From: a virus
DNA: 25,866 nucleotides
Direction: 5' to 3' (one strand)
Virus record (IMG/VR): IMGVR_UViG_3300028388_005384
Span: 1-25,866 of that record
The translations under genes and the position numbers were made by a program. Position 1 is the stretch's first letter. Every line of letters begins with the position of its first letter. The notes under the pieces are model-generated. The model worked only from the letters and a program-made list of their open reading frames with translations, ran no database searches and was not told where the DNA came from. Shown one piece after another: positions 10,077 through 25,744 of the stretch.

Positions 10077-10924
10077 TAGAATCTATCAACCTCACTAAAT
10101 GGGTTTACTTCACTAAAGTCAATAATTCCTTCTGCTTGAGTAGTATAGAAAGAATTGTTTGCAAACTTAACTTGACTTTCGATAACAAACTCTTGCAAGA
10201 ATGTCCCTCCATCTTCTGAAAGTAACACACCTGATTCATCTTCTATTGTAAACTGATTACCCAAAGTATCAAGGCTGAACGTAGTTTCTATTGCATCGAT
10301 ATCATTGTTTCCAGTATCAAGACGTTCGCTGCTGTACTCGAATAACTCACAACGGAGATCATAAGATTGCATTCTACCCATCTGGAAGAATGTTGGACGA
10401 TCATCGACATACATGATCTCGAAGATCTTACCGATCATTGGGAAGTAGATTAGATCGCCCTGCTGAGGCCTGTTCATTGTATTAAGATAATCATCGCCTT
10501 CAAGTTCCCACGATTCGGTGTTGATATCGCCGGTTAAGATCTGACGTGATGGTTCATCTGTATCGCCATCTTCAAATACAAGATTGTAACCAACCTCTGT
10601 CATTATTTTAGGAGAAGTGATTGCTTGATCGAATCTCTTACGAGATACTGTAAGAACTATCTGGTCTCTGATTTCAAGACCAAACTTTGAGAGAAATTGT
10701 CCATCACCTTCAAATCCTTCCATAGACTTGAGATACATTTCAACTGGGATTGCTTCGTCAAACTTAGATAATGGATCTTCGCCAAATAGATGATCTACAG
10801 ATACACGAGTACGAGGTAAGTAAAGAATCTCATGACCATAGATCTTTATAGATTCTAAGATCAGATCCTCTACTAGATCCTGTTCTCTAGCAAATCCATA
10901 GTTGTTGAAATAAGCATTAAGCAT
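10076..10924 (-). CDS. 14: Neck protein (T4 gp14 homologue)
   Basis: A 282-residue homologue of T4 gp14 (256), which with gp13 forms the neck that seals the filled head and joins it to the tail. Family signatures are NAYFNNYGFAREQDLVEDL, IKIYGHEILYLPRTRV and GDLIYFPMIGKIFEIMYVDD. The ATG follows the gene 13 TGA with one base between, and no strong ribosome site of its own is seen, so it is likely translated by coupling. The C-terminal region after about residue 215 is variable and acidic. Confidence 0.95.
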   Translation of the reverse strand: MLNAYFNNYGFAREQDLVEDLILESIKIYGHEILYLPRTRVSVDHLFGEDPLSKFDEAIPVEMYLKSMEGFEGDGQFLSKFGLEIRDQIVLTVSRKRFDQAITSPKIMTEVGYNLVFEDGDTDEPSRQILTGDINTESWELEGDDYLNTMNRPQQGDLIYFPMIGKIFEIMYVDDRPTFFQMGRMQSYDLRCELFEYSSERLDTGNNDIDAIETTFSLDTLGNQFTIEDESGVLLSEDGGTFLQEFVIESQVKFANNSFYTTQAEGIIDFSEVNPFSEVDRF

Positions 10925-12329: not shown

Positions 12330-13127
12330 TTATCCATACATTAGTTGTGATTTTTCACGCCAAAATTCGAGGCCTTTATATTTATTCCACACACTTTCTG
12401 GCAGAATCGATCTACGTGGTTTGTGCTCTACTTTTTTCCTCACAGTATGTAAGTCTCTCATTCCAAACGAAAGGTCAAATGGTTCGTTAGAATATTCTAC
12501 ATTATTATAGTCGTGAGGATAATATTCTCTATCTAAGAAGCTGTAAATCTTTCTAATTTCTTGTTCTGGACTCTTACAAAGATCATCATATTCTACAAGA
12601 TGGATAATTTCTGGATTGCATGCCAAGCCTTCTTCTAACCACTTCAATGGTTTGTATACATGACCAGCTTTAGTTGGATCCATCATTGCCATACATCTAG
12701 TTTCAACTGAAGGTTGAGCTTCTTCGTCTATAAATGTATTTGTGTACAATGCATTGTGATTTGAAATTCTCTCGAAGCTATCGAGGATCCAAGGAATATC
12801 TCTCACGCAGCAAATAATTTTTGTGTATGGAAACAAGGTTTTTAGTAGAGATGTTTTTGAGGTCCAAGACCGATTGCTATCAAAAATTACTTGTTTATCG
12901 ATACTATTGTAATATCCGTCAATGAAACCTTTAAGACTGTCCTTTCTCTTCTCTTCATCAATATTCTGGCTATTCTCACTTGCGGTAAATGAATTAATAA
13001 TTGAATCACATATACCTGATACAGGAGAAGCAATATCCGCATAGAACTCAGGATTCTGCTTAAGGATAGCAGAAACAAGTGTTGAACCTGATCTTGGAAG
13101 TCCAGAAATAAAGTAATATGTCTTCAC
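12330..13127 (-). CDS. Sulfotransferase family protein
   Basis: A 265-residue protein beginning with the PAPS-binding loop FISGLPRSGSTLVSAIL (5'-phosphosulfate motif GLPRSGST) and carrying the second PAPS motif CVRDIPWILDSFERIS (Arg/Ser contacts to the 3'-phosphate). Length and layout fit soluble bacterial and phage sulfotransferases, which move sulfate from PAPS to sugars, peptides or small molecules. It starts with GTG at 13127, supported by GAGG six bases upstream and a 4-nt GTGA overlap with the preceding gene. Set among glycosyltransferases, it may sulfate the sugar they build; this is an inference. Confidence 0.88.
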   Translation of the reverse strand: MKTYYFISGLPRSGSTLVSAILKQNPEFYADIASPVSGICDSIINSFTASENSQNIDEEKRKDSLKGFIDGYYNSIDKQVIFDSNRSWTSKTSLLKTLFPYTKIICCVRDIPWILDSFERISNHNALYTNTFIDEEAQPSVETRCMAMMDPTKAGHVYKPLKWLEEGLACNPEIIHLVEYDDLCKSPEQEIRKIYSFLDREYYPHDYNNVEYSNEPFDLSFGMRDLHTVRKKVEHKPRRSILPESVWNKYKGLEFWREKSQLMYG

Positions 13128-13687
13128 GATTCCTCACTTAATAATTTAAATACTGTATTCATTACAATTCTATACTCACTATTTATTGGCGACGAACTGC
13201 TATGAAACTTATTAGAGTCAAATAGCACCATACGACCTTTCTTCGGTGTTATAGTGTTTGTCACATTAAGATCTTCGTCGAAGAAATATGTATCACCATC
13301 ACTATCATTGACATAGTAAATGGCCGTATATACATCTTGTTCTGAATTATCTACATGTGGGTAATGGTATGTATTATCTGAGCTTTTTGGCAAAAAGTTA
13401 AACTTGCATCTTAGTATTCTAATATTACTTTGAAATTCAACTGAAAGTTGGTTCATGACTGGTGTAATTGTATCAATGAAACTGCAATCATTGAGATTGA
13501 TACTGTGAACGAACTGAAAAGGATTGATGCCTTTATCGTATACAGATTTTGATTGTATACCTCCTCTAACATCAACTATAGTACCAGGAGTAAAGAACCA
13601 TGGAAAGTTTGGATCGAAAGTCAACAACTCCTCAATTTTCCGCTCTTGTTCTTCGGTAAGAAAGTTTTCTATCATGTAGCTATTCAT
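13124..13687 (-). CDS. 2OG-Fe(II) oxygenase, prolyl-hydroxylase-like
   Basis: A 187-residue protein with the double-stranded beta-helix oxygenase ligands: His111 and Asp113 in HYPHVDNSEQ, His162 in SNKFHSSSSP, and Arg173 in EYRIVMNTVF, the usual 11 residues beyond the distal His. The stretch YTAIYYVNDSDGDTYFF between them is typical of the family. The N-terminus (MIENFLTEEQERKIEELL) resembles related phage oxygenases. The start could be the ATG at 13687 or one 12 nt downstream; neither has a strong ribosome site, and the gene overlaps the radical SAM gene by 8 nt. The substrate is unknown. Confidence 0.85.
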   Translation of the reverse strand: MNSYMIENFLTEEQERKIEELLTFDPNFPWFFTPGTIVDVRGGIQSKSVYDKGINPFQFVHSINLNDCSFIDTITPVMNQLSVEFQSNIRILRCKFNFLPKSSDNTYHYPHVDNSEQDVYTAIYYVNDSDGDTYFFDEDLNVTNTITPKKGRMVLFDSNKFHSSSSPINSEYRIVMNTVFKLLSEES

Positions 13688-14639
13688 TTACAAAATACAA
13701 TTGTTGATTATTTTTGTGTTGCCCGTATTGTTTACCTGGAATATTTGTCCACACTAATGATTCTGTCGACTCATATAATTGATCACAATTTTTACAATAA
13801 TCTATTTCATCAAACCTTTCCTGCGCATGAAGTTTACGAAGTTGTTGATATTGTTGACCATTAAAGATATCAATAATAGATTGAGTATCTGCATGTCCTA
13901 ATACCGCGCCCGAGTCATTACCTAATACATAGCAGCAGGGTACTACTGCACCATGATGGATATCTAAACCTCCTGCTCTAATATTAATGTAAGGAGCAAA
14001 CGGCCGGCCACAAGACCTTCTCTTAGTAGTATTTCTAGAGTAAGGTGTATCGTATGTGCCACTCCAGTTATGCATCAGCCATATTTCTGCTTTAATGCCA
14101 AGCGGATCGATCCAATTATTTTTATATTGTTGTACATCAAAATCTTGGTTTTTTTTATCTAAAACTAAATGATATGATGAAAGTTTCGATCCTGTATCAT
14201 TTGATCTTTGCAAGTAATAATTAACATTTTTGTATACTTTATCAAATCCATCTCTACTCATCCATTTAATATATGTTTGTCTATTGTATCCTATTACACT
14301 AATTCTTATAAAATCCAGGCCTACATCTATCAACTCATCTGATATTTTTTGTGATAAATTAAAACCATTAGAAACCATACTTACTTCAAGATTTTGATCT
14401 TTAGCTATCTTTACATATTCAGCAATATTCCTATTAAGTAGTGGTTCACCACTTCCCTGTAAATCTATTTGCTTGCACCCAATGTCTTCAAGTTGTAAAC
14501 AAATATCCTTGAAAAGATCTATTGGCATTTTTTTTAGAAAGTTTTTTTCTCTTCCAGAAGATTGAGGACACATTTCGCATGTATAGTTACACCCCCCGTT
14601 AACTTCAACAGAAGCATTTGTAATAATATTATCGCTCAT
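13680..14639 (-). CDS. Radical SAM enzyme with SPASM-like C-terminus
   Basis: A protein of about 319 residues with the radical SAM cluster motif CNYTCEMC (CxxxCxxC) near the N-terminus, which binds the 4Fe-4S cluster that splits S-adenosylmethionine. QGSGEPLLN (the GGE-like motif) and VSMVSNGFNL follow in the usual order. The C-terminal third has extra cysteines (CGRPF, VPCCYVLGN, YCKNCDQ), as in SPASM/twitch domains that bind auxiliary clusters in peptide- and sugar-modifying enzymes. The ATG at 14639 is preferred; an in-frame GTG 9 nt earlier overlaps the likely GTGAG ribosome site. It lies in a run of modification genes, so it may act on a sugar nucleotide or a protein side chain. The exact reaction cannot be read from the sequence. 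Confidence 0.87.
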   Translation of the reverse strand: MSDNIITNASVEVNGGCNYTCEMCPQSSGREKNFLKKMPIDLFKDICLQLEDIGCKQIDLQGSGEPLLNRNIAEYVKIAKDQNLEVSMVSNGFNLSQKISDELIDVGLDFIRISVIGYNRQTYIKWMSRDGFDKVYKNVNYYLQRSNDTGSKLSSYHLVLDKKNQDFDVQQYKNNWIDPLGIKAEIWLMHNWSGTYDTPYSRNTTKRRSCGRPFAPYINIRAGGLDIHHGAVVPCCYVLGNDSGAVLGHADTQSIIDIFNGQQYQQLRKLHAQERFDEIDYCKNCDQLYESTESLVWTNIPGKQYGQHKNNQQLYFVNE

Positions 14640-14657
14640 TGATCTCACTTATCAAAT

Positions 14658-19493: not shown

Positions 19494-20295
19494 AGTTGGT
19501 ATGAAAGTCAAATTCTTCCCATCGCTTTGCTGTTGGTTCAGTCTCAAGAAACTCGGGAGTGCAGTTCCATATGTTACCATCTTTGATCATAAAACATTCT
19601 CTGCTGCTATGGTTAATGTAGTCATCGCCCCACAACGAGCTGTGTAAATGTCTTCCCATTAGATCTTTTTTATATACAATGGGATCTTGATTAAAGACAT
19701 CTGCTGGAAAATTACCTACAGAAAAATATTGACCATATGATTTGATACATGCAGATAACATTCCGGAACCAGTAGTATTGTTTACTGCATAATCGTTGTC
19801 ATACGACCTCCAGTCATCTGTATCGGTGTTAAACAGACGTCTGTAGAGTATAAAGCTATGTTTAGTGTTTTTCATTACAGTGTATAAAAATTCACTATTA
19901 GATGTACTTGCCATCAAACAATTTTCATACTCTGCATTGGTATAAAGCTCTGATGTATTCTCTAAAAATATATTTTCACAAGTTAAATATTTTTCAAAAT
20001 TATTGTAACAGTAATAATCCATATCAGCATAAATCCCACCATACTTGTGAAGTAGACATAATCTTGCAAAGTCAATCTTCATAATGTGATGCGGAAAGTT
20101 TGTGTACAGGTTCCACACTTCATTATAATGATCATAGACTAATCTGTCTATGTCATCTCGATCGTTCCACAGAATAAACTCGTGATTGGGAAAGTTTTCG
20201 ATAAACGAGTCGCGGCATCGCTTCCATATAGGATGCCACTTAGATTCATCTTCAGGTGCAATGTGGTGAATAATATTGGGAATCACTGAGTTCAC
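19483..20295 (-). CDS. DXD glycosyltransferase (Gly_transf_sug/GT32-like), paralogue C
   Basis: A 270-residue protein from a GTG at 20295 that overlaps the preceding TAG stop by one base (TAGTG). This start aligns the N-terminus VIPNIIHHIAPEDESKWHP with those of paralogues A and B; the open frame extends 36 nt further upstream inside the oxygenase gene. The core FPHHIMKIDFARLCLLHKY followed by GGIYADMDYYCY holds the DXD motif (about residues 91-93). The middle and C-terminal parts differ more from A and B than those two do from each other (GRHLHSSLWGDDYIN in place of the EYRTKH motif). Confidence 0.87.
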   Translation of the reverse strand: MNSVIPNIIHHIAPEDESKWHPIWKRCRDSFIENFPNHEFILWNDRDDIDRLVYDHYNEVWNLYTNFPHHIMKIDFARLCLLHKYGGIYADMDYYCYNNFEKYLTCENIFLENTSELYTNAEYENCLMASTSNSEFLYTVMKNTKHSFILYRRLFNTDTDDWRSYDNDYAVNNTTGSGMLSACIKSYGQYFSVGNFPADVFNQDPIVYKKDLMGRHLHSSLWGDDYINHSSRECFMIKDGNIWNCTPEFLETEPTAKRWEEFDFHTNYAQ

Positions 20296-20906
20296 TATTT
20301 CGTATGTGGAACATTTTCCTTTGGAATACAAATAATGTTAAATGAGATAGAAATTCTCGCGTCATCATGGTCATTTGGAAGCACACTGTGCGGAAGATAC
20401 GATGGCCAGATATAGATCTGCCCTTCCTTAGGTTCAAACTTCAAATGCTCTGCTGTAAACTTATTCTTAGACTCAGAGAGCATCGTTCCTTGCCACAGTT
20501 TATTCAATCCAGGATTCGTAAAAGAAATCTTTCCACTTTTCTCAGGGACTTGTAAATAGAATACACCAGAGTATGTATCGTTGTGAACGTGCTCATGATT
20601 GTGTGCTGCACGATTGTCGTTGATGTTCGCCCATGCAGATGTAATGTACACGTCACAATCAACAAACTGATTGTCAAAGTTTGCTTTCATTCCCATTTGA
20701 GCAACAAACTCAAACAGAGGAGCAAACGCAGGTTCATTTGTTAATTTCATTGGACTTTCGTAACCTGAAATATTTGAACGAGATCCACTGTTAGGATTGT
20801 TCTTTCTGTATTCAGCTACACAGTCAAGAAACGCTTGCTTTTGATTTTGGAAGTCTGGAAACTCAGAGTTCCATATCGGAGTAGAAAATACTTGAATAAT
20901 GTTCAT
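20295..20906 (-). CDS. 2OG-Fe(II) oxygenase family protein (TIGR02466-like)
   Basis: A 203-residue protein from the ATG at 20906, with GAGG five bases upstream; an in-frame GTG lies 6 nt before. The start NIIQVFSTPIWNSEFPDF and the middle TSAWANINDNRAAHNHEHVH are typical of the TIGR02466 oxygenases found in many marine T4-like phages. Iron ligands are His108 and Asp110 (HVHNDTYSG) and His173 (SYLPHSVLPN), with Arg184 (ARISISFN) binding 2-oxoglutarate. It is the first gene of the accessory cassette, directly downstream of the exact sigma-70-type promoter. The substrate is unknown. Confidence 0.88.
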   Translation of the reverse strand: MNIIQVFSTPIWNSEFPDFQNQKQAFLDCVAEYRKNNPNSGSRSNISGYESPMKLTNEPAFAPLFEFVAQMGMKANFDNQFVDCDVYITSAWANINDNRAAHNHEHVHNDTYSGVFYLQVPEKSGKISFTNPGLNKLWQGTMLSESKNKFTAEHLKFEPKEGQIYIWPSYLPHSVLPNDHDDARISISFNIICIPKENVPHTK

Positions 20907-20926
20907 AGTCACCTCACTTTTGTTAA

Positions 20927-20955
20927 ATTATATATTAATTATATGTGTATGTCAA
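20927..20955 (-). promoter_or_regulatory. Exact consensus sigma-70-type promoter for the modification cassette
   Basis: On the minus strand TTGACA (20955-20950) and TATAAT (20932-20927) are separated by exactly 17 nt, the ideal layout for bacterial housekeeping RNA polymerase. It lies in the 56-nt gap between the last lectin-type gene and the first oxygenase gene, with the ATG about 20 nt after the -10 box. In T4-like phages such promoters are used early, by unmodified host polymerase. Confidence 0.85.
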
Positions 20956-20962
20956 CTCATTT

Positions 20963-21886
20963 TTAATTATAAAATGATACTCTCCTGACAGCTCTAACAC
21001 AGCGGATAAAGCCTTTATGAAGGCCGTCATTGATGCTACCATTGCTAAAGAACTGGTAGAATGCATCACTGGCAGAGCCCTCCGTACTAGACCAATAGAG
21101 GGCCGTTGTAAACCCCTCACCAGCTGGAGCACTGGCTTTATTGTCATACAATTGGTCTAGTTCACATATGGCTGGTAGGTACCAATCGCTAAATCCACCT
21201 ATTGATCTAGTCGCTGTCCAATTGCCTGCTGGATGAGTGGCATTCGCCAGATGGTCATAGGTATTTCCATAGCCGTCACATTGTTCGTTGCCAACACCAG
21301 AACTAGTTCTAGTGGTCTTCCATATGCAGTCAGCACATCCAGTCGCATTAGGTGCCATGATTAGGTAATAACATGAACCATCACTAATACCTATGGTACC
21401 CATATAGAACCCACCAAACGTAGACTCACCCAACGTTGATGGTAAAGGTACAGTAGTGAAGCAAGTTGCATCTGAAAATTCCGAACAACATCCGTCTTCA
21501 TCTTCATAACGGAGTCTAAAAAAGTGTTGAGTACCATCTGATAAACACCCAGCTGGTACAGCCACACTTGTACAAGCACCTGCTATCTCACATGTAAAAC
21601 TATTACAGGTACTGAAATCTGAACACTCTGACACCTGAAAACATGTACAACAGTGTGCCTTACCTTCTGACGAAACGAATATTGTACCAGTCAAAGTGGG
21701 TACTAATTCTACATCCGTCGCGGCATCAGCAGGTGATTGATTTCCTGGTTTTAATGTTCGGTCAAGCAGCGAAATACCAGTTAACGAAGAACCATCACCA
21801 ACAAGTGTTGTAGCACAAAAATCATTTGCATTCGTTACATTACAAGAATTATCAATAACTGTGGTGCCTGAAATCTTAATAGCCAT
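20963..21886 (-). CDS. Cysteine-rich fibre/adhesin with DUF1566 lectin-like domain, copy 1
   Basis: A 307-residue protein in three parts. Residues 1-40 form a marine-phage fibre start (MAIKISGTTVIDNSCN, then VGDGSSLTGIS). About residues 45-148 form an Ig/Fn3-like domain unusually rich in Cys (HCCTCFQVSECSDFSTC). Residues 155-303 form a DUF1566 C-type-lectin-like domain with GGFSDWYLPAICELDQLY, YWSSTE and a final VRAVRRV. There are 19 Cys in all. AAGGA precedes the ATG, 9 nt after copy 2. The segment for residues 259-296 differs strongly from the other copies and has many NNC codons. DUF1566 domains are known display scaffolds for retroelement-driven diversity. The likely role is host-surface binding at the virion. 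Confidence 0.82.
   Translation of the reverse strand: MAIKISGTTVIDNSCNVTNANDFCATTLVGDGSSLTGISLLDRTLKPGNQSPADAATDVELVPTLTGTIFVSSEGKAHCCTCFQVSECSDFSTCNSFTCEIAGACTSVAVPAGCLSDGTQHFFRLRYEDEDGCCSEFSDATCFTTVPLPSTLGESTFGGFYMGTIGISDGSCYYLIMAPNATGCADCIWKTTRTSSGVGNEQCDGYGNTYDHLANATHPAGNWTATRSIGGFSDWYLPAICELDQLYDNKASAPAGEGFTTALYWSSTEGSASDAFYQFFSNGSINDGLHKGFIRCVRAVRRVSFYN
20999..21112 (-). other. Variable segment of lectin-like domain, copy 1
   Basis: Codons 259-296 of copy 1. Fifteen of 38 codons end in C, against about 14 of the first 133 codons of the same gene. Short conserved ends (YWSST on one side, VRAVRRV on the other) frame it. This pattern resembles a variable region of a diversity-generating retroelement, but no template or reverse transcriptase is seen here. 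Confidence 0.4.
21210..21259. repeat. 50-bp direct repeat shared by lectin copies 1 and 2 (unit 1)
   Basis: This 50-bp stretch is identical to 22158-22207. A further 39-bp identity links 21470-21508 and 22415-22453. Such islands of identity beside divergent ends suggest recent duplication or gene conversion. Confidence 0.85.
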
Positions 21887-21895
21887 AGTTAATCC

Positions 21896-22828
21896 TTAAA
21901 ATGGTACTCTTCTAATAGCTCTTATGTATCTGCAATTTTCTTTATCAGAATCTGTCAAACGTCCGGGTGAATCTCTTCCGGCAGCCATGTATAGGATGAG
22001 TCCATTATCTGTATTTGGCACATTCGCTGTACTAAGCCAATAGCCTCTATCACCAGTCCACCCCTCACCAACTGGAGTACAGGCGATGTTATTGTATATT
22101 GCTTGCAGTTCGCACGAAGCCGGCAAGTACCAGTCAGAAAATCCACCGATTGATCTGGTCGCTGTCCAATTGCCTGCTGGATGAGTGGCATTCGCCAGAT
22201 GGTCATACGTGTTTCCATAGCCGTCACATCGTTCATCACCTTCACCAGAATTTGCTCTTGGCACTCTATATTGGCAATAAGCACAACCGGTTGCATTTGG
22301 AGCCATAATTAGGTAGTAACATGATCCTGCAGCGCAAATCGTTCCCATATAGAAACCACCACAGATAGATTCACCTAATGTTGATGGAAGTGGTGCTGTA
22401 GTGAAGCAAGTTGTATCTGAAAATTCCGAACAACATCCGTCTTCATCTTCATATCTCAGTCGGAAGAAATGCTGTGTATTGATATTTAAACACCCATCTG
22501 GAACAGTTATACTTGTACAGCCGCCAGCTATTTCACAGGTAAAACTATTACAGGTACTAAAGTCAGAACACTCTGACACCTGAAAACATGTACAACAGTG
22601 ACTAGAACCAACTGTTGATACAAAGCATGTTCCAGTCAAAGTGGGTTCAAATTCTACATCAGTCGCGGCATCAGCAGGTGATTGATTTCCTGGTTTAAAA
22701 ATTCGATCTGGCCCAATACCAGTAATTGCTGATCCATCACCAACGAAACATGTTGCAGTAGCCGTTCCTATGTTACAAAAGTTACGGCTGTCATCAATGA
22801 CGGTATTGCCAGATATCTTGATTGCCAT
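21896..22828 (-). CDS. Cysteine-rich fibre/adhesin with DUF1566 lectin-like domain, copy 2
   Basis: A 310-residue paralogue with the same three-part layout and 23 Cys (7.4%). It shares long stretches with copy 1, including a 50-bp identical DNA block encoding part of the lectin core, but the end of the domain (from GEGWTGDRGYWLSTANV to DKENCRYIRAIRRVPF) is quite different and a few residues longer. YWSSTE is changed to YWLSTA. The ATG overlaps the stop of the preceding gene (TAATG). Conserved scaffold with a variable binding face is the expected pattern for alternative adhesins. It may assemble as a tip or side fibre; there is no direct evidence which. Confidence 0.82.
   Translation of the reverse strand: MAIKISGNTVIDDSRNFCNIGTATATCFVGDGSAITGIGPDRIFKPGNQSPADAATDVEFEPTLTGTCFVSTVGSSHCCTCFQVSECSDFSTCNSFTCEIAGGCTSITVPDGCLNINTQHFFRLRYEDEDGCCSEFSDTTCFTTAPLPSTLGESICGGFYMGTICAAGSCYYLIMAPNATGCAYCQYRVPRANSGEGDERCDGYGNTYDHLANATHPAGNWTATRSIGGFSDWYLPASCELQAIYNNIACTPVGEGWTGDRGYWLSTANVPNTDNGLILYMAAGRDSPGRLTDSDKENCRYIRAIRRVPF
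21926..22060 (-). other. Variable segment of lectin-like domain, copy 2
   Basis: Codons 257-301 of copy 2. Only 8 of 45 codons end in C, so the codon bias is weaker than in copies 1 and 3. It is the most divergent in length and sequence of the three. Confidence 0.35.
22158..22207. repeat. 50-bp direct repeat shared by lectin copies 1 and 2 (unit 2)
   Basis: Second copy of the 50-bp block at 21210-21259. It encodes part of the conserved lectin core, around HLANATHPAGNWTATR. Confidence 0.85.
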
Positions 22829-23418
22829 TACTCAGGAGTTTCCTCTTCAACAGCAAATGGATTATCACTGACTTCGTTCGCTGTAATGAACACATTATCC
22901 AACTGTTCTTCTGTCCAACCCAAACCTTCAGCCATCTTCTGCACGATTGGATGATATTTTGGAATAAAGTCAGCAAATTCCCATATGATGCTGATTTTTG
23001 CTTTAGTAGCATCATCGTAAGTATCAAAGTGTGCTACTACAGAATCCAACAGTCCAAGTTCTAACAAAGCCAAACGAATTCGCATTGGCGATGCTTCTTG
23101 AGGAAGTCTTGCACGTTCTTCAACTACCTTAGCATTATTATACTGTTCTTCAGCTGTGACGGTTACAGATCCTTCCTCAGTTTCATCTACTCGATCTTCA
23201 AAGACGAACACAACACCAGGAATGTCGGTATCAGCATCGTCATCGCACGTTCCATAGAAACGTGGGTATTGATCTGGATGAGTCAGTGGCCAATTTGATT
23301 CGTCCCACCACTCAATATTTAAACCTTTGACATCAGGAAATGTAGGTCCATTTCTCATCGGAGCCTCTGTTCCTGGTATTTTTGTTCTACTATCTACATG
23401 TGTTACACAAATGTACAT
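22828..23418 (-). CDS. Conserved marine-phage hypothetical protein of fibre modules
   Basis: A 196-residue protein with GGAG before the ATG. The N-terminal region (MYICVTHVDSRTKIPGTEAP, MRNGPTFPDVKGLNIEWWD, PRFYGTCDDDADTDIPGVV) is a type I know from fibre regions of marine T4-like phages. The C-terminal part (RIRLALLELGLLDSVVAHF, then EGLGWTEEQLDNVF) resembles a helical module often at the C-terminus of phage tail-associated proteins. No catalytic motif is seen. It lies between lectin-type copies 3 and 2 and is coupled to copy 2. It may help fold or attach them, as small chaperones do for other fibres, but this is inference from position. Confidence 0.72.
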   Translation of the reverse strand: MYICVTHVDSRTKIPGTEAPMRNGPTFPDVKGLNIEWWDESNWPLTHPDQYPRFYGTCDDDADTDIPGVVFVFEDRVDETEEGSVTVTAEEQYNNAKVVEERARLPQEASPMRIRLALLELGLLDSVVAHFDTYDDATKAKISIIWEFADFIPKYHPIVQKMAEGLGWTEEQLDNVFITANEVSDNPFAVEEETPE

Positions 23419-23449
23419 TGTTTTCTCCGAATAATTAAATAATTAAATA

Positions 23450-24379
23450 TTAAAATGGTACTCTCCTGATAGCTCTAACATTGCGAAAAGTGATCTTAAA
23501 GTTGCCTTGGGTCCCACCAGTGTCAAATCTCAAGCAGGTTGCGGTGGTCGAGTTCGCTTCCGTACTAGACCAATAGCCGCCCGCAGCAGTCGAATCAAAT
23601 CCTTCACCAACTGGAGCACAGGCGCAATTTTGGTATAATTGACCAAGTTCACATATGGCCGGCAAATACCAGTCACTGAAGCCATCAATCGACCTCGTTG
23701 CTGTCCAATTACCAGCTCGATGTGTGCCAGGGGAGGCGGCCGTCAGATGGTCGTAGGTCTCTCCATAGCCGTCGAAATCCTCTTTTGTGTCTGCAGAGTC
23801 TGTGTTAGTGCTCTTCCATCCGCATTTTGCACAACCAGTAGCATTCGGTGCCATGATTAGGTAATAACAGGAACCATCACTAATACCTATGGTTCCCATA
23901 TAGAACCCACCACAAATTGATTCACCTAATGTTTCGGGAAGTGGGAAAGTAGTAAAACAAGTTGCATCTGAAAAATCAGAACAACATGAATCCTCATCTT
24001 CATAACGAAGTCTAAAAAAGTGTTGAGTTCCTGGAGATAAACATCCATCTGGAACAGTTATACTCGTACAAGCACCGGCAATTTCACAGGTAAAACTATT
24101 ACAGGTACTAAAATCTGAACATTCTGATACCTGAAAACATGTGCAGCAATGACTAGAACCAACTGTAGATACAAATTCAGTACCAGTTAAAGTTGGTTCT
24201 AAATCTACATCAGTCGCAGCATTAGTAGGTTCTTGGTTTGCAGGTTTTAGAATACGATCTGGGGTGACACCAGTTAATGAAGTACCATCGCCAAATATAC
24301 ATGAAGCGGTGATAGTACCAGCATTACACAAGTTTCTACTGTTATCAATAACAGTTGTATTGTTAATTTTGATCGCCAT
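23450..24379 (-). CDS. Cysteine-rich fibre/adhesin with DUF1566 lectin-like domain, copy 3
   Basis: A 309-residue paralogue, the first of the three to be transcribed. The fibre start is MAIKINNTTVIDNSRNLCNA, then ASCIFGDGTSLTG. The Cys-rich Ig/Fn3-like domain (SHCCTCFQVSECSDF) is nearly the same as in the other copies. The lectin-like domain has DGFSDWYLPAICELGQLY and YWSSTE and ends VRAIRRVPF. It has 21 Cys. The variable segment (about residues 261-300) has 13 of 40 codons ending in C. The ATG has AGGA upstream, and an AATAAATA late-like box lies 32 nt before it. It is separated from copy 2 by the 196-residue gene, so the three copies are not a simple tandem array. Confidence 0.82.
   Translation of the reverse strand: MAIKINNTTVIDNSRNLCNAGTITASCIFGDGTSLTGVTPDRILKPANQEPTNAATDVDLEPTLTGTEFVSTVGSSHCCTCFQVSECSDFSTCNSFTCEIAGACTSITVPDGCLSPGTQHFFRLRYEDEDSCCSDFSDATCFTTFPLPETLGESICGGFYMGTIGISDGSCYYLIMAPNATGCAKCGWKSTNTDSADTKEDFDGYGETYDHLTAASPGTHRAGNWTATRSIDGFSDWYLPAICELGQLYQNCACAPVGEGFDSTAAGGYWSSTEANSTTATCLRFDTGGTQGNFKITFRNVRAIRRVPF
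23480..23599 (-). other. Variable segment of lectin-like domain, copy 3
   Basis: Codons 261-300 of copy 3, with 13 of 40 codons ending in C. It shares an 18-nt identical core with copy 1 (encoding YWSST) and differs on both sides. Confidence 0.4.
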
Positions 24380-24396: not shown

Positions 24397-25500
24397 TTAG
24401 CTTTTTAGTTTATTTATTGTTTCTTGTTGCTCTTTGATAGCCTCGATCAACAAACCAATAAGTTTACCGTAACCAATGGATTTAAATCCATTTTCTCTGG
24501 TACTTACCACTTCCGGAACTATTTCCTCGACTTCTTGAGCAATCATTCCTACAGAACTCTCTCCACTTTCTTTCCAGTTAAAAGATACACCTCTCAATTG
24601 TAAAACTTTTTCTAAACTGTTGTTAAGGGTTTGAATGTTTTCCTTGAGATTTTCATCTGAAGTAGAGTTAAAGTCTGTAGCATCTACCTCTCCTGATGAA
24701 GGATTGAATGTAAATACTGAGCTTACATTAGCTGTTGTCATTGTTCCTGAAGTAATTCCAGTAAACACTACACTTAGATCTCTATCAGCACCACCATCGA
24801 CAGCAACTGTCGATCCAGCATTAGTTAACTGTGATCCATCCCCAATAAATGCATTAGCTGTAATGTTACCAGTAGCTGTCAAAGCACCAGTAAAGTCTGC
24901 TCCAGCAGCAGTGAATTCCATTTTCCCACCGCCACCAAGCTGGATGATTAAATTACCACCACCTTCATCATTAATGATACTATCTGACCCATTGTGGAAG
25001 ATCTCCAAGTCTCCAGCAGTACCGAATAATGCTTTAATATTATCGTTAAATGTTAAGTCGCCTGAAGTTTTTGCATCAGCTGTATCTGATCTCAGGAAAC
25101 TTCCAGAATCTATACTATCGAGCGTCTGTGCATCAACATCGGTTAAACTTGAACCATCGCCGGAGAAGGAATTTGCATACACATTGCCTGTTACAGATAT
25201 AAAATCGGCAACACTCAGATTTCCATTAGTACGTACATCATCACCTTCAACACGTAAACCACCAGAGTTGATATCAACTGTACTTGTGATATCAACATTG
25301 GCACCTGTTAAAGATGTATTAGATGTGATACTCGTAATTGAACCATCCAATGTTGTATTGGATGAAAACGTTGTGATTGTTGTAATTGTAGTCGGAGTAG
25401 TAGAGTTAGCAGATACAGCCTCAGCAATGATACTGTTAGTTCTCACACGCCATGTGTTAAAAGTATCTGTTAGTTCTACATTAGCTATGTTAAGAGCCAT
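24397..25500 (-). CDS. Tail fibre protein with C-terminal S74 self-cleaving chaperone domain
   Basis: A 367-residue protein from the ATG at 25500; an in-frame upstream start would add 7 residues from within the preceding gene. The N-terminus (ALNIANVELTDTFNTWRVRT) is common in marine phage fibres. A Thr/Ser/Gly-rich beta shaft follows, with two copies of the module 'TGNxxANxFxGDGSxLT'. The C-terminal 90 residues are a peptidase S74/intramolecular chaperone domain: STSDENLKENI holds the Ser281-Lys286 pair with the spacing of the known autoproteolytic dyad, then GMIAQEVEEIVPEVV and a coiled-coil end (EAIKEQQETINKLKS). The domain should trimerise the fibre and then cleave itself off. Its start overlaps the preceding gene by 11 nt. 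Confidence 0.92.
   Translation of the reverse strand: MALNIANVELTDTFNTWRVRTNSIIAEAVSANSTTPTTITTITTFSSNTTLDGSITSITSNTSLTGANVDITSTVDINSGGLRVEGDDVRTNGNLSVADFISVTGNVYANSFSGDGSSLTDVDAQTLDSIDSGSFLRSDTADAKTSGDLTFNDNIKALFGTAGDLEIFHNGSDSIINDEGGGNLIIQLGGGGKMEFTAAGADFTGALTATGNITANAFIGDGSQLTNAGSTVAVDGGADRDLSVVFTGITSGTMTTANVSSVFTFNPSSGEVDATDFNSTSDENLKENIQTLNNSLEKVLQLRGVSFNWKESGESSVGMIAQEVEEIVPEVVSTRENGFKSIGYGKLIGLLIEAIKEQQETINKLKS
24411..24418 (-). promoter_or_regulatory. Possible late promoter box (AATAAATA) for lectin-type copy 3
   Basis: The minus strand reads AATAAATA, 7 of 8 bases of the T4 late consensus, 32 nt before the ATG of copy 3. It lies in the last codons of the S74 fibre gene, so it could be a chance match in AT-rich coding DNA. 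Confidence 0.35.
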
Positions 25501-25744
25501 TCTGCTTACCTTTGTTTTCAATTGACATTAAAATTAATTCTCTTAACGAATTGATTTCTTCTTTCAAGGTATTTATATCTTCTTTGACTTCTGTCTTGAA
25601 ATCAGTCAATTCGTTTATCTTACTTAACTGTTTCTTTTGTCTCTTGTATGCAACAAGAGCATTATTGTTTACATTTAAGATCGCACCAGTATTCTTATCT
25701 TTAACGAGATCAGGTTGATCTTCAATTTTCTCTACTTCAATCAT
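25490..25744 (-). CDS. Small coiled-coil protein conserved in marine T4-like phages
   Basis: An 84-residue protein. The N-terminus (DQPDLVKDKNTGAILNVNNN) is of a type seen in many marine T4-like phages ('DlyRD.ktGAI.N.n...y..Y'), followed by a Lys/Glu-rich coiled coil (FKTEVKEDINTLKEEINSL). The ATG overlaps the preceding stop by 4 nt (ATGA), and the end overlaps the S74 fibre gene by 11 nt, so translation is coupled on both sides. A minor structural or assembly role in the baseplate/fibre region is likely; the function is unknown. Confidence 0.75.
   Translation of the reverse strand: MIEVEKIEDQPDLVKDKNTGAILNVNNNALVAYKRQKKQLSKINELTDFKTEVKEDINTLKEEINSLRELILMSIENKGKQNGS

Follow-up and report, generated by a model that had tools for sequence, protein, structure and literature searches.

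Diversity-generating retroelements (DGRs) acting on DUF1566/Lcl_C domains are known from the Bacteroides phage Bacuni F1 and from the Legionella type (PMC8143477, PMC4159848). DGRs that diversify phage attachment proteins have likewise been described, and the suggestion of an earlier note on this DNA that DUF1566 domains are established DGR targets agrees with the literature (PMC4159848, PMC6642488, PMC8143477, PMC8144416). Here we analyze three adhesin genes, c1, c2 and c3, found in a 25,866-base virus record (the window), which is part of the genome of a T4-like myovirus. We conclude, with a probability of about two thirds, that the variable segments of c1 and c3 are former variable regions (VRs) of a DGR, the mutator part of which (avd, the template repeat (TR) and the reverse transcriptase (RT)) has been deleted in this lineage.

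Genome context and relatives of the window

The window contains T4-type structural genes, including a portal (phrog_213) and a gp15-type tail sheath stabiliser (PF16724), which place it among the T4-like myoviruses, and its terminase is 58% identical to those of Pelagibacter, Methylophilales and Synechococcus myophages. The neck genes lie on one side and a tail fibre with an S74 chaperone domain (24397..25521, PF13884; all features given here are on the minus strand), located upstream of c3, lies on the other. Between them are found a sulfotransferase, a radical-SAM protein, glycosyltransferase-like ORFs, a 2OG-Fe(II) oxygenase and the three adhesin genes. In both location and gene content this arrangement is that of the host-recognition cluster of pelagimyophages and cyanomyophages (PMC7029224), and the window belongs to such a cluster in a T4-like aquatic myovirus.

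Scans of viral_contigs with single proteins and with the first alignments returned no relatives, and a nucleotide search of phages with the window gave no matches. Relatives were recovered when domain-level alignments were used as queries against viral_contigs; these are IMG/VR contigs, which we label L085, L086, L088, L117, L132, L137 and so on. The closest relative of the window is L085. Its adhesin precedes the same oxygenase that is found behind c1 in the window (20295..20912, PF13759; 90% identical in L085/L094).

Three old paralogues with different tips

The adhesins are encoded by ORFs of 307 (c1, 20963..21886), 310 (c2, 21896..22828) and 309 (c3, 23450..24379) amino acids. At a Pfam gathering cut-off of 34.9 bits, PF07603 (Lcl_C, formerly DUF1566) is matched by c1 (41.2 bits) and c3 (38.2 bits), whereas the c2 match stays below the cut-off (24.2 bits, E 4e-5). 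In c1, a MAIKISG.TVID anchor is followed by a Cys-rich FN3-like part and a C-type-lectin-like Lcl_C tip, and all three copies have in common the MAIKI..TVID start, the Cys-rich part and the Lcl_C C-terminus. The AlphaFold model of the c1 Lcl_C domain, calculated with 40 sequences, has a pLDDT of 94, whereas that of the full-length protein reaches only 39. The best fold matches of the predicted tip are the C-terminal domain of Legionella Lcl (PDB 8q4e, E 6e-5) and the Bacteroides fimbrial tip 4eps (E 7e-4), both of which are bacterial rather than phage proteins and are about 20% identical to the tip in sequence. We infer from domain and context that c1, c2 and c3 encode receptor-binding adhesins.

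The three proteins are 70–72% identical overall, with an almost invariant Cys-rich part, and they do differ sharply in one C-terminal segment, as had been noticed before. The further statement that the copies are nearly the same outside this segment holds for the proteins but not for the DNA. Third codon positions outside the segment agree in only 49–60% of cases, so that the copies cannot be recent duplicates over their whole length. A second, smaller variable patch is located at residues 186–203. Exact DNA runs of 35–50 nt are common to c1 and c2. Such long exact runs elsewhere in the adhesin genes show that blocks of DNA can stay conserved through gene conversion alone, which counts against a DGR reading.

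We defined the segment tightly, as the codons after YWSSTE and before VRA[VI]RR. It comprises 27 codons in c1 (20999..21079), 33 in c2 (21926..22024) and 26 in c3 (23480..23557). It lies at the C-terminal end of the C-type-lectin-like domain, where VRs are found, and in alignments it coincides with the L132 and Bacuni F1 VRs. Its flanks are conserved at the DNA level in c1, c3 and L085 as TATTGG[TA]CTAGTACGGA and GTTAGAGCT[GA]TCAGGAGAGTA. The 5' border reads TATTGGTCTAGTACGGAG in c1 (21080..21097) and TATTGGTCTAGTACGGAA in c3 (23558..23575). At the 3' border, which begins with GTTAGAGCTGTCAGGAGAGTA in c1 (20972..20998) and reads GTTAGAGCTATCAGGAGAGTACCATTT in c3 (23453..23479), 9/9 third positions are equal in every pair among c1, c3 and L085, whereas elsewhere in these genes only 39–60% agree. 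Together with the downstream DNA, the 3' border of c3 matches L085 in 50/51 nt across the stop codon. The c2 segment has neither these borders nor the STE motif, and its third positions agree with those of c3 and L085 at chance level.

Codon signature of the segments

The codon counts reported earlier are exact: 15/38, 13/40 and 8/45 codons of the wider segments of c1, c3 and c2, respectively, end in C. The front of c1 indeed has 14 such codons, although out of 151 by our boundaries and not out of about 133. After amino-acid composition and phage codon usage had been controlled for, the tight segments of c1 and c3 were found to contain 2.5 times as many C-ending codons as predicted, with p about 0.0005 each (13 vs 5.2 expected, p 0.0004, and 11 vs 4.1, p 0.0006). 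The bias claimed for c2 did not withstand this control (7 vs 5.5, p 0.30). The NNC-type footprint of AAC template codons is thus present in c1 and c3 and absent from c2. The core of c3 is also mildly rich in C-ending codons (p 0.006). A GC-rich foreign origin of the c1 segment is unlikely, as C is frequent at third positions and G is not (13 vs 1). Measured against their own codon usage, an NNC excess is also displayed by L085, L086 and both tandem domains of L088.

For a broader comparison, 80 Lcl_C loci were collected from IMG/VR, and an RVT_1 reverse transcriptase was found in 13 of the 76 newly searched records. Each 25-codon tip was scored for C-ending codons against the codon usage of its own contig, and loci were counted as RT-less only if at least 3 kb of downstream sequence was available, this status being called on fragments. 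The median z score was 2.7 in loci with an RT (n=12) and -0.1 in those without (n=33; p 8e-6). In another 44 RT-adjacent genes, retrieved separately, the median was 2.4 and every value was positive, and the pooled 56 genes had the same median of 2.4 vs -0.1 in the 33 genes without RT. The difference persisted when AT-rich contigs alone were considered (p 4e-5). With scores of 3.4 and 3.9, c1 and c3 are in the range of RT-bearing loci, and c2 (2.0) is in between. Several RT-less T4-like relatives are also in that range (L085, 4.8; L088, 4.2 and 2.9; L117, 3.9; L086, 2.6), whereas RT-less L111 shows no signature (-0.2). As a group, these nine T4-like RT-less tips, c1, c2 and c3 included, differ from the RT-less loci (p 2e-4) and not from the RT-bearing ones (p 0.6; AT-rich contigs), all these p values being indicative only because the loci are related and not phylogenetically independent. 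The excess of the segment over the core discriminates less well than the segment score alone, since the cores of RT-less loci are poor in C-ending codons.

These comparisons bear on the possibility that no DGR was ever involved, and that the loops diverged by ordinary mutation, diversifying selection and recombination between copies and phages. Such a history would fit the lack of an RT or template in the window, the variability of Lcl_C tips in DGR-free phages, the long identical DNA runs of c1 and c2, and the absence of the signature from c2. It does not predict a local, composition-corrected NNC excess, the likeness of c1 and c3 to RT-bearing loci, or the avd remnants beside orthologous adhesins and the post-VR repeat behind c3 that are described below, and we consider it quite unlikely.

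A comparison of third positions between segments was less clear-cut. In a three-way alignment of c1, c3 and L085 anchored at conserved residues, with gaps placed so as to maximise the count in both the real and the shuffled data, third positions were equal in 11 amino-acid-variable columns vs 4.7 expected (p 0.001), but with default MAFFT gaps the count was 3/15 and not significant, so that the outcome depends on gap placement. A more favourable count from a first hand alignment (10/18, p 4e-5) was dropped as evidence on account of the same MAFFT result. Because the segments of c1 and c3 differ in length by one codon (27 vs 26) and share third positions only in part, a simple model in which both derive from one template is rejected, and one template cannot have generated them recently. 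In L117, third positions of the two tandem tips are equal in 14/16 codons that differ in amino acid, compared with 18/33 in the rest of the domain, and judging from their sequences these tips look like products of one template.

DGR machinery in relatives and its absence from the window

Complete DGRs are present in relatives of the window. In the contigs L132 and L137, which are T4-like by their portal, sheath, gp15 and neck genes, and in the related contig L146, the gene order is adhesin-avd-TR-RT-chaperone. Templates were located with a scan that tolerates mismatches at template adenines only; it recovered both VRs and the template of Bacuni F1, which served as a positive control, and found template-like copies in RT-bearing loci. 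Mismatches between VR and TR coincide with a template A in 9/9 (L132), 13/13 (L137) and 19/20 (L146) cases. The layout recurs in other contigs whose RT belongs to this group (L220-L228), and in L220-L223 and L228 a homologue of the sulfotransferase of the window (56–57% identical) is found behind the chaperone.

The searches of the window confirmed the earlier observation that it contains neither RT nor template, and Avd is absent from it as well. The contigs of L085, L086, L087, L088 and L117 contain no RT at E <= 10, and no template was detected in those of L085, L088 and L117 by the scan that recovers templates in RT-bearing controls. Thus, both RT and template are missing from as much as 115 kb of L088 and 78 kb of L117. 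An RVT_1 search of 46 terminase relatives found none either; those records are without an Lcl_C gene.

The position at which the cassette would be expected can be identified by comparison with the T4-like relatives that carry avd-TR-RT. Homologues of the chaperone gene sit directly behind the RT in the DGR-bearing relatives, and the window contains such a tail-fibre assembly chaperone-like gene (22828..23418), assigned by its match to phrog_6034, by the match of its L132 homologue to PF16778 (Phage_tail_APC) and by synteny. It is separated from c3 by a gap of only 31 nt (23419..23449), which represents the empty avd-TR-RT slot and in which no remnants of avd or RT were found. The gap does contain, directly behind the c3 stop codon, the sequence TTTAATTATTTAAT (23434..23447), the sole match in the window to the post-VR repeat TTTAATNNTTTAAT of the DGR-bearing relatives (0.01 expected). 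The repeat occupies the same place in 4/5 AT-rich RT-bearing relatives and in 0/15 RT-less loci, the motif having been defined only after the sequences had been looked at.

Remnants of avd are found in the closest relatives. In L085, a piece of about 42 residues (67% identical over 42 aa, E 6e-13), which runs into stops, is located directly behind the RT-less adhesin, and similar truncated avd pieces lie behind the RT-less adhesins of L086, L117 and L160. These truncated genes point to loss of the DGR. They also bear on the idea that the tips were acquired by recombination from a DGR-bearing relative, with the conserved borders as crossover sites, in which case the window's own ancestor need not have had a DGR. 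Among c1, c3 and L085, identity in DNA is indeed seen at the borders and not in the gene bodies, and the c2 tip is unrelated even though the c2 body has exact runs in common with c1. Yet the position of the segments is that of the DGR locus itself, and the avd piece behind the orthologous L085 adhesin indicates that the cassette was in the lineage, which makes such an acquisition highly improbable.

Alternatively, an active DGR could lie at another position of this genome and target c1 and c3 from a distance. The window covers 25.9 kb of a genome of probably 130–200 kb, the NNC signature of c1 and c3 is not visibly decayed relative to RT-bearing relatives, and L132 provides a T4-like precedent, since it has a second, remote VR of one template, which lies on the other strand at a distance of roughly 8 kb from the RT and in which 14/16 mismatches coincide with a template A. 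This arrangement is nevertheless rather unlikely for the window. In the T4-like contigs with an RT, avd-TR-RT lies directly between adhesin and chaperone, where the slot is empty here; the long L088 and L117 contigs are devoid of RT and template; L085, L086 and L117 have truncated avd genes; and no contig of viral_contigs other than L085 contains the border 18-mer GTTAGAGCTRTCAGGAGA. We infer from the footprint and synteny that a DGR acted on c1 and c3; its loss, as opposed to relocation within the genome, is the more probable outcome. The proposal that a DGR diversified the segments is supported for the origin of those of c1 and c3, given their VR position, codon signature and the complete DGRs of T4-like relatives. 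It is not supported for an ongoing process, in view of the missing RT, Avd and template in the window, the lack of RT and template in L088 (115 kb) and L117 (78 kb) and the avd remnants.

A more general proposal is that T4-like phages keep diversifying orphan VRs by means of an RT supplied from a distant locus of their own genome, a co-infecting phage or the host. We consider this unlikely; the L117 tips, with their one-template appearance and 78 kb free of RT and template, would be the clearest case for it.

Proposed history and comparison with known systems

Under the preferred reading, in which c1 and c3 carry orphaned VRs, an ancestral adhesin-avd-TR-RT-chaperone cassette would have rewritten the lectin tip by copying an adenine-rich template with mutations at adenines, thus leaving NNC and NNT codons between borders conserved in DNA. 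Subsequently, avd, TR and RT would have been deleted in this lineage. The adhesins would have been duplicated, and the bodies of c1 and c2 partly homogenised by sequence exchange, while the tips were kept different. The outcome would be a small fixed set of tips, presumably binding different host surface ligands.

One locus in T4-like phages displays DGR turnover, from complete cassettes through truncated avd relics to clean losses, with the diversified tips remaining. Such turnover suggests that a mutator may serve phages temporarily, a small number of fixed receptor-binding variants being retained afterwards via gene duplication. Furthermore, surveys that rely on RT-VR proximity miss targets without an RT on the contig, as acknowledged in PMC8144416, and the codon test flags former or remote DGR targets on such contigs. 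Neither DGRs within the host-recognition clusters of T4-like phages nor avd relics adjoining orphan VRs were described in the literature searched, coverage of which was partial.

The window shares with the Bacuni F1 and Legionella-type DGRs the C-terminal Lcl_C domain, a VR at the identical place (STE...A...F..G.....K....VR[AP]V) and NNC/NNT codons in the VR. Unlike those systems, it is without RT, Avd and template, and its copies are old paralogues with segments of different lengths. The host-recognition cluster of pelagimyophages and cyanomyophages (PMC7029224) is likewise a variable island with tail fibres and glycosyltransferases beside the neck genes; a word search of that text finds no mention of a retroelement. 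The T4-like DGRs (L132, L137; L146, L220-L228) differ from the window in carrying avd, TR and RT, all three of which it lacks. They have in common with it the host-recognition cluster, the chaperone gene and the post-VR repeat found here behind c3, and the adhesins are homologous, that of L132 starting with MALKIGGVTVIDDSKN and c2 of the window with MAIKISGNTVIDDSRN.

In L132, one of the T4-like relatives that carry a complete DGR, the template has a second, remote variable repeat (L215, the contig of L132, 12428-12541, plus strand). It lies in the Lcl-like tip of a 118-aa protein, about 8 kb from the reverse transcriptase and on the opposite strand, and 14 of its 16 mismatches fall at template adenines. 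The terminase large subunit of the same phage is matched in separated pieces across L215 4009-6958, where there is an 818-aa ORF; the pattern looks as if an intein or other insert interrupted the gene.

In the RT-less relative L117, a single adhesin of 449 aa contains two Lcl_C domains in tandem (L211, the contig of L117, 12624-13973, minus strand). Its two variable tips have their third codon positions in common and differ at the first and second positions; neither an RT nor a template was found in the 78 kb of this contig. Downstream (3') of the adhesin of L088, also RT-less, the stretch 10393-10531 includes GTGGCACAGTAA, which can be read as M-A-Q-stop; this is suggestive of, and possibly represents, a last trace of avd.

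Between adhesin copy 1 and the 2OG-Fe(II) oxygenase gene of the window, a perfect TTGACA-17-TATAAT match, located by eye, is a predicted sigma-70-type promoter (20913-20962, minus strand). The same promoter-like sequence occurs in the closest relative, L085, behind its avd remnant.

Also on the minus strand of the window are a collagen-repeat fibre gene (PF01391; 1549-2649) adjoining the portal gene and, in the host-recognition cluster, a radical SAM/SPASM gene (13680-14648) and a sulfotransferase gene (12330-13127). A sulfotransferase gene of this kind is likewise present downstream of the DGR in L220-L223 and L228, contigs with the same RT group as L132.
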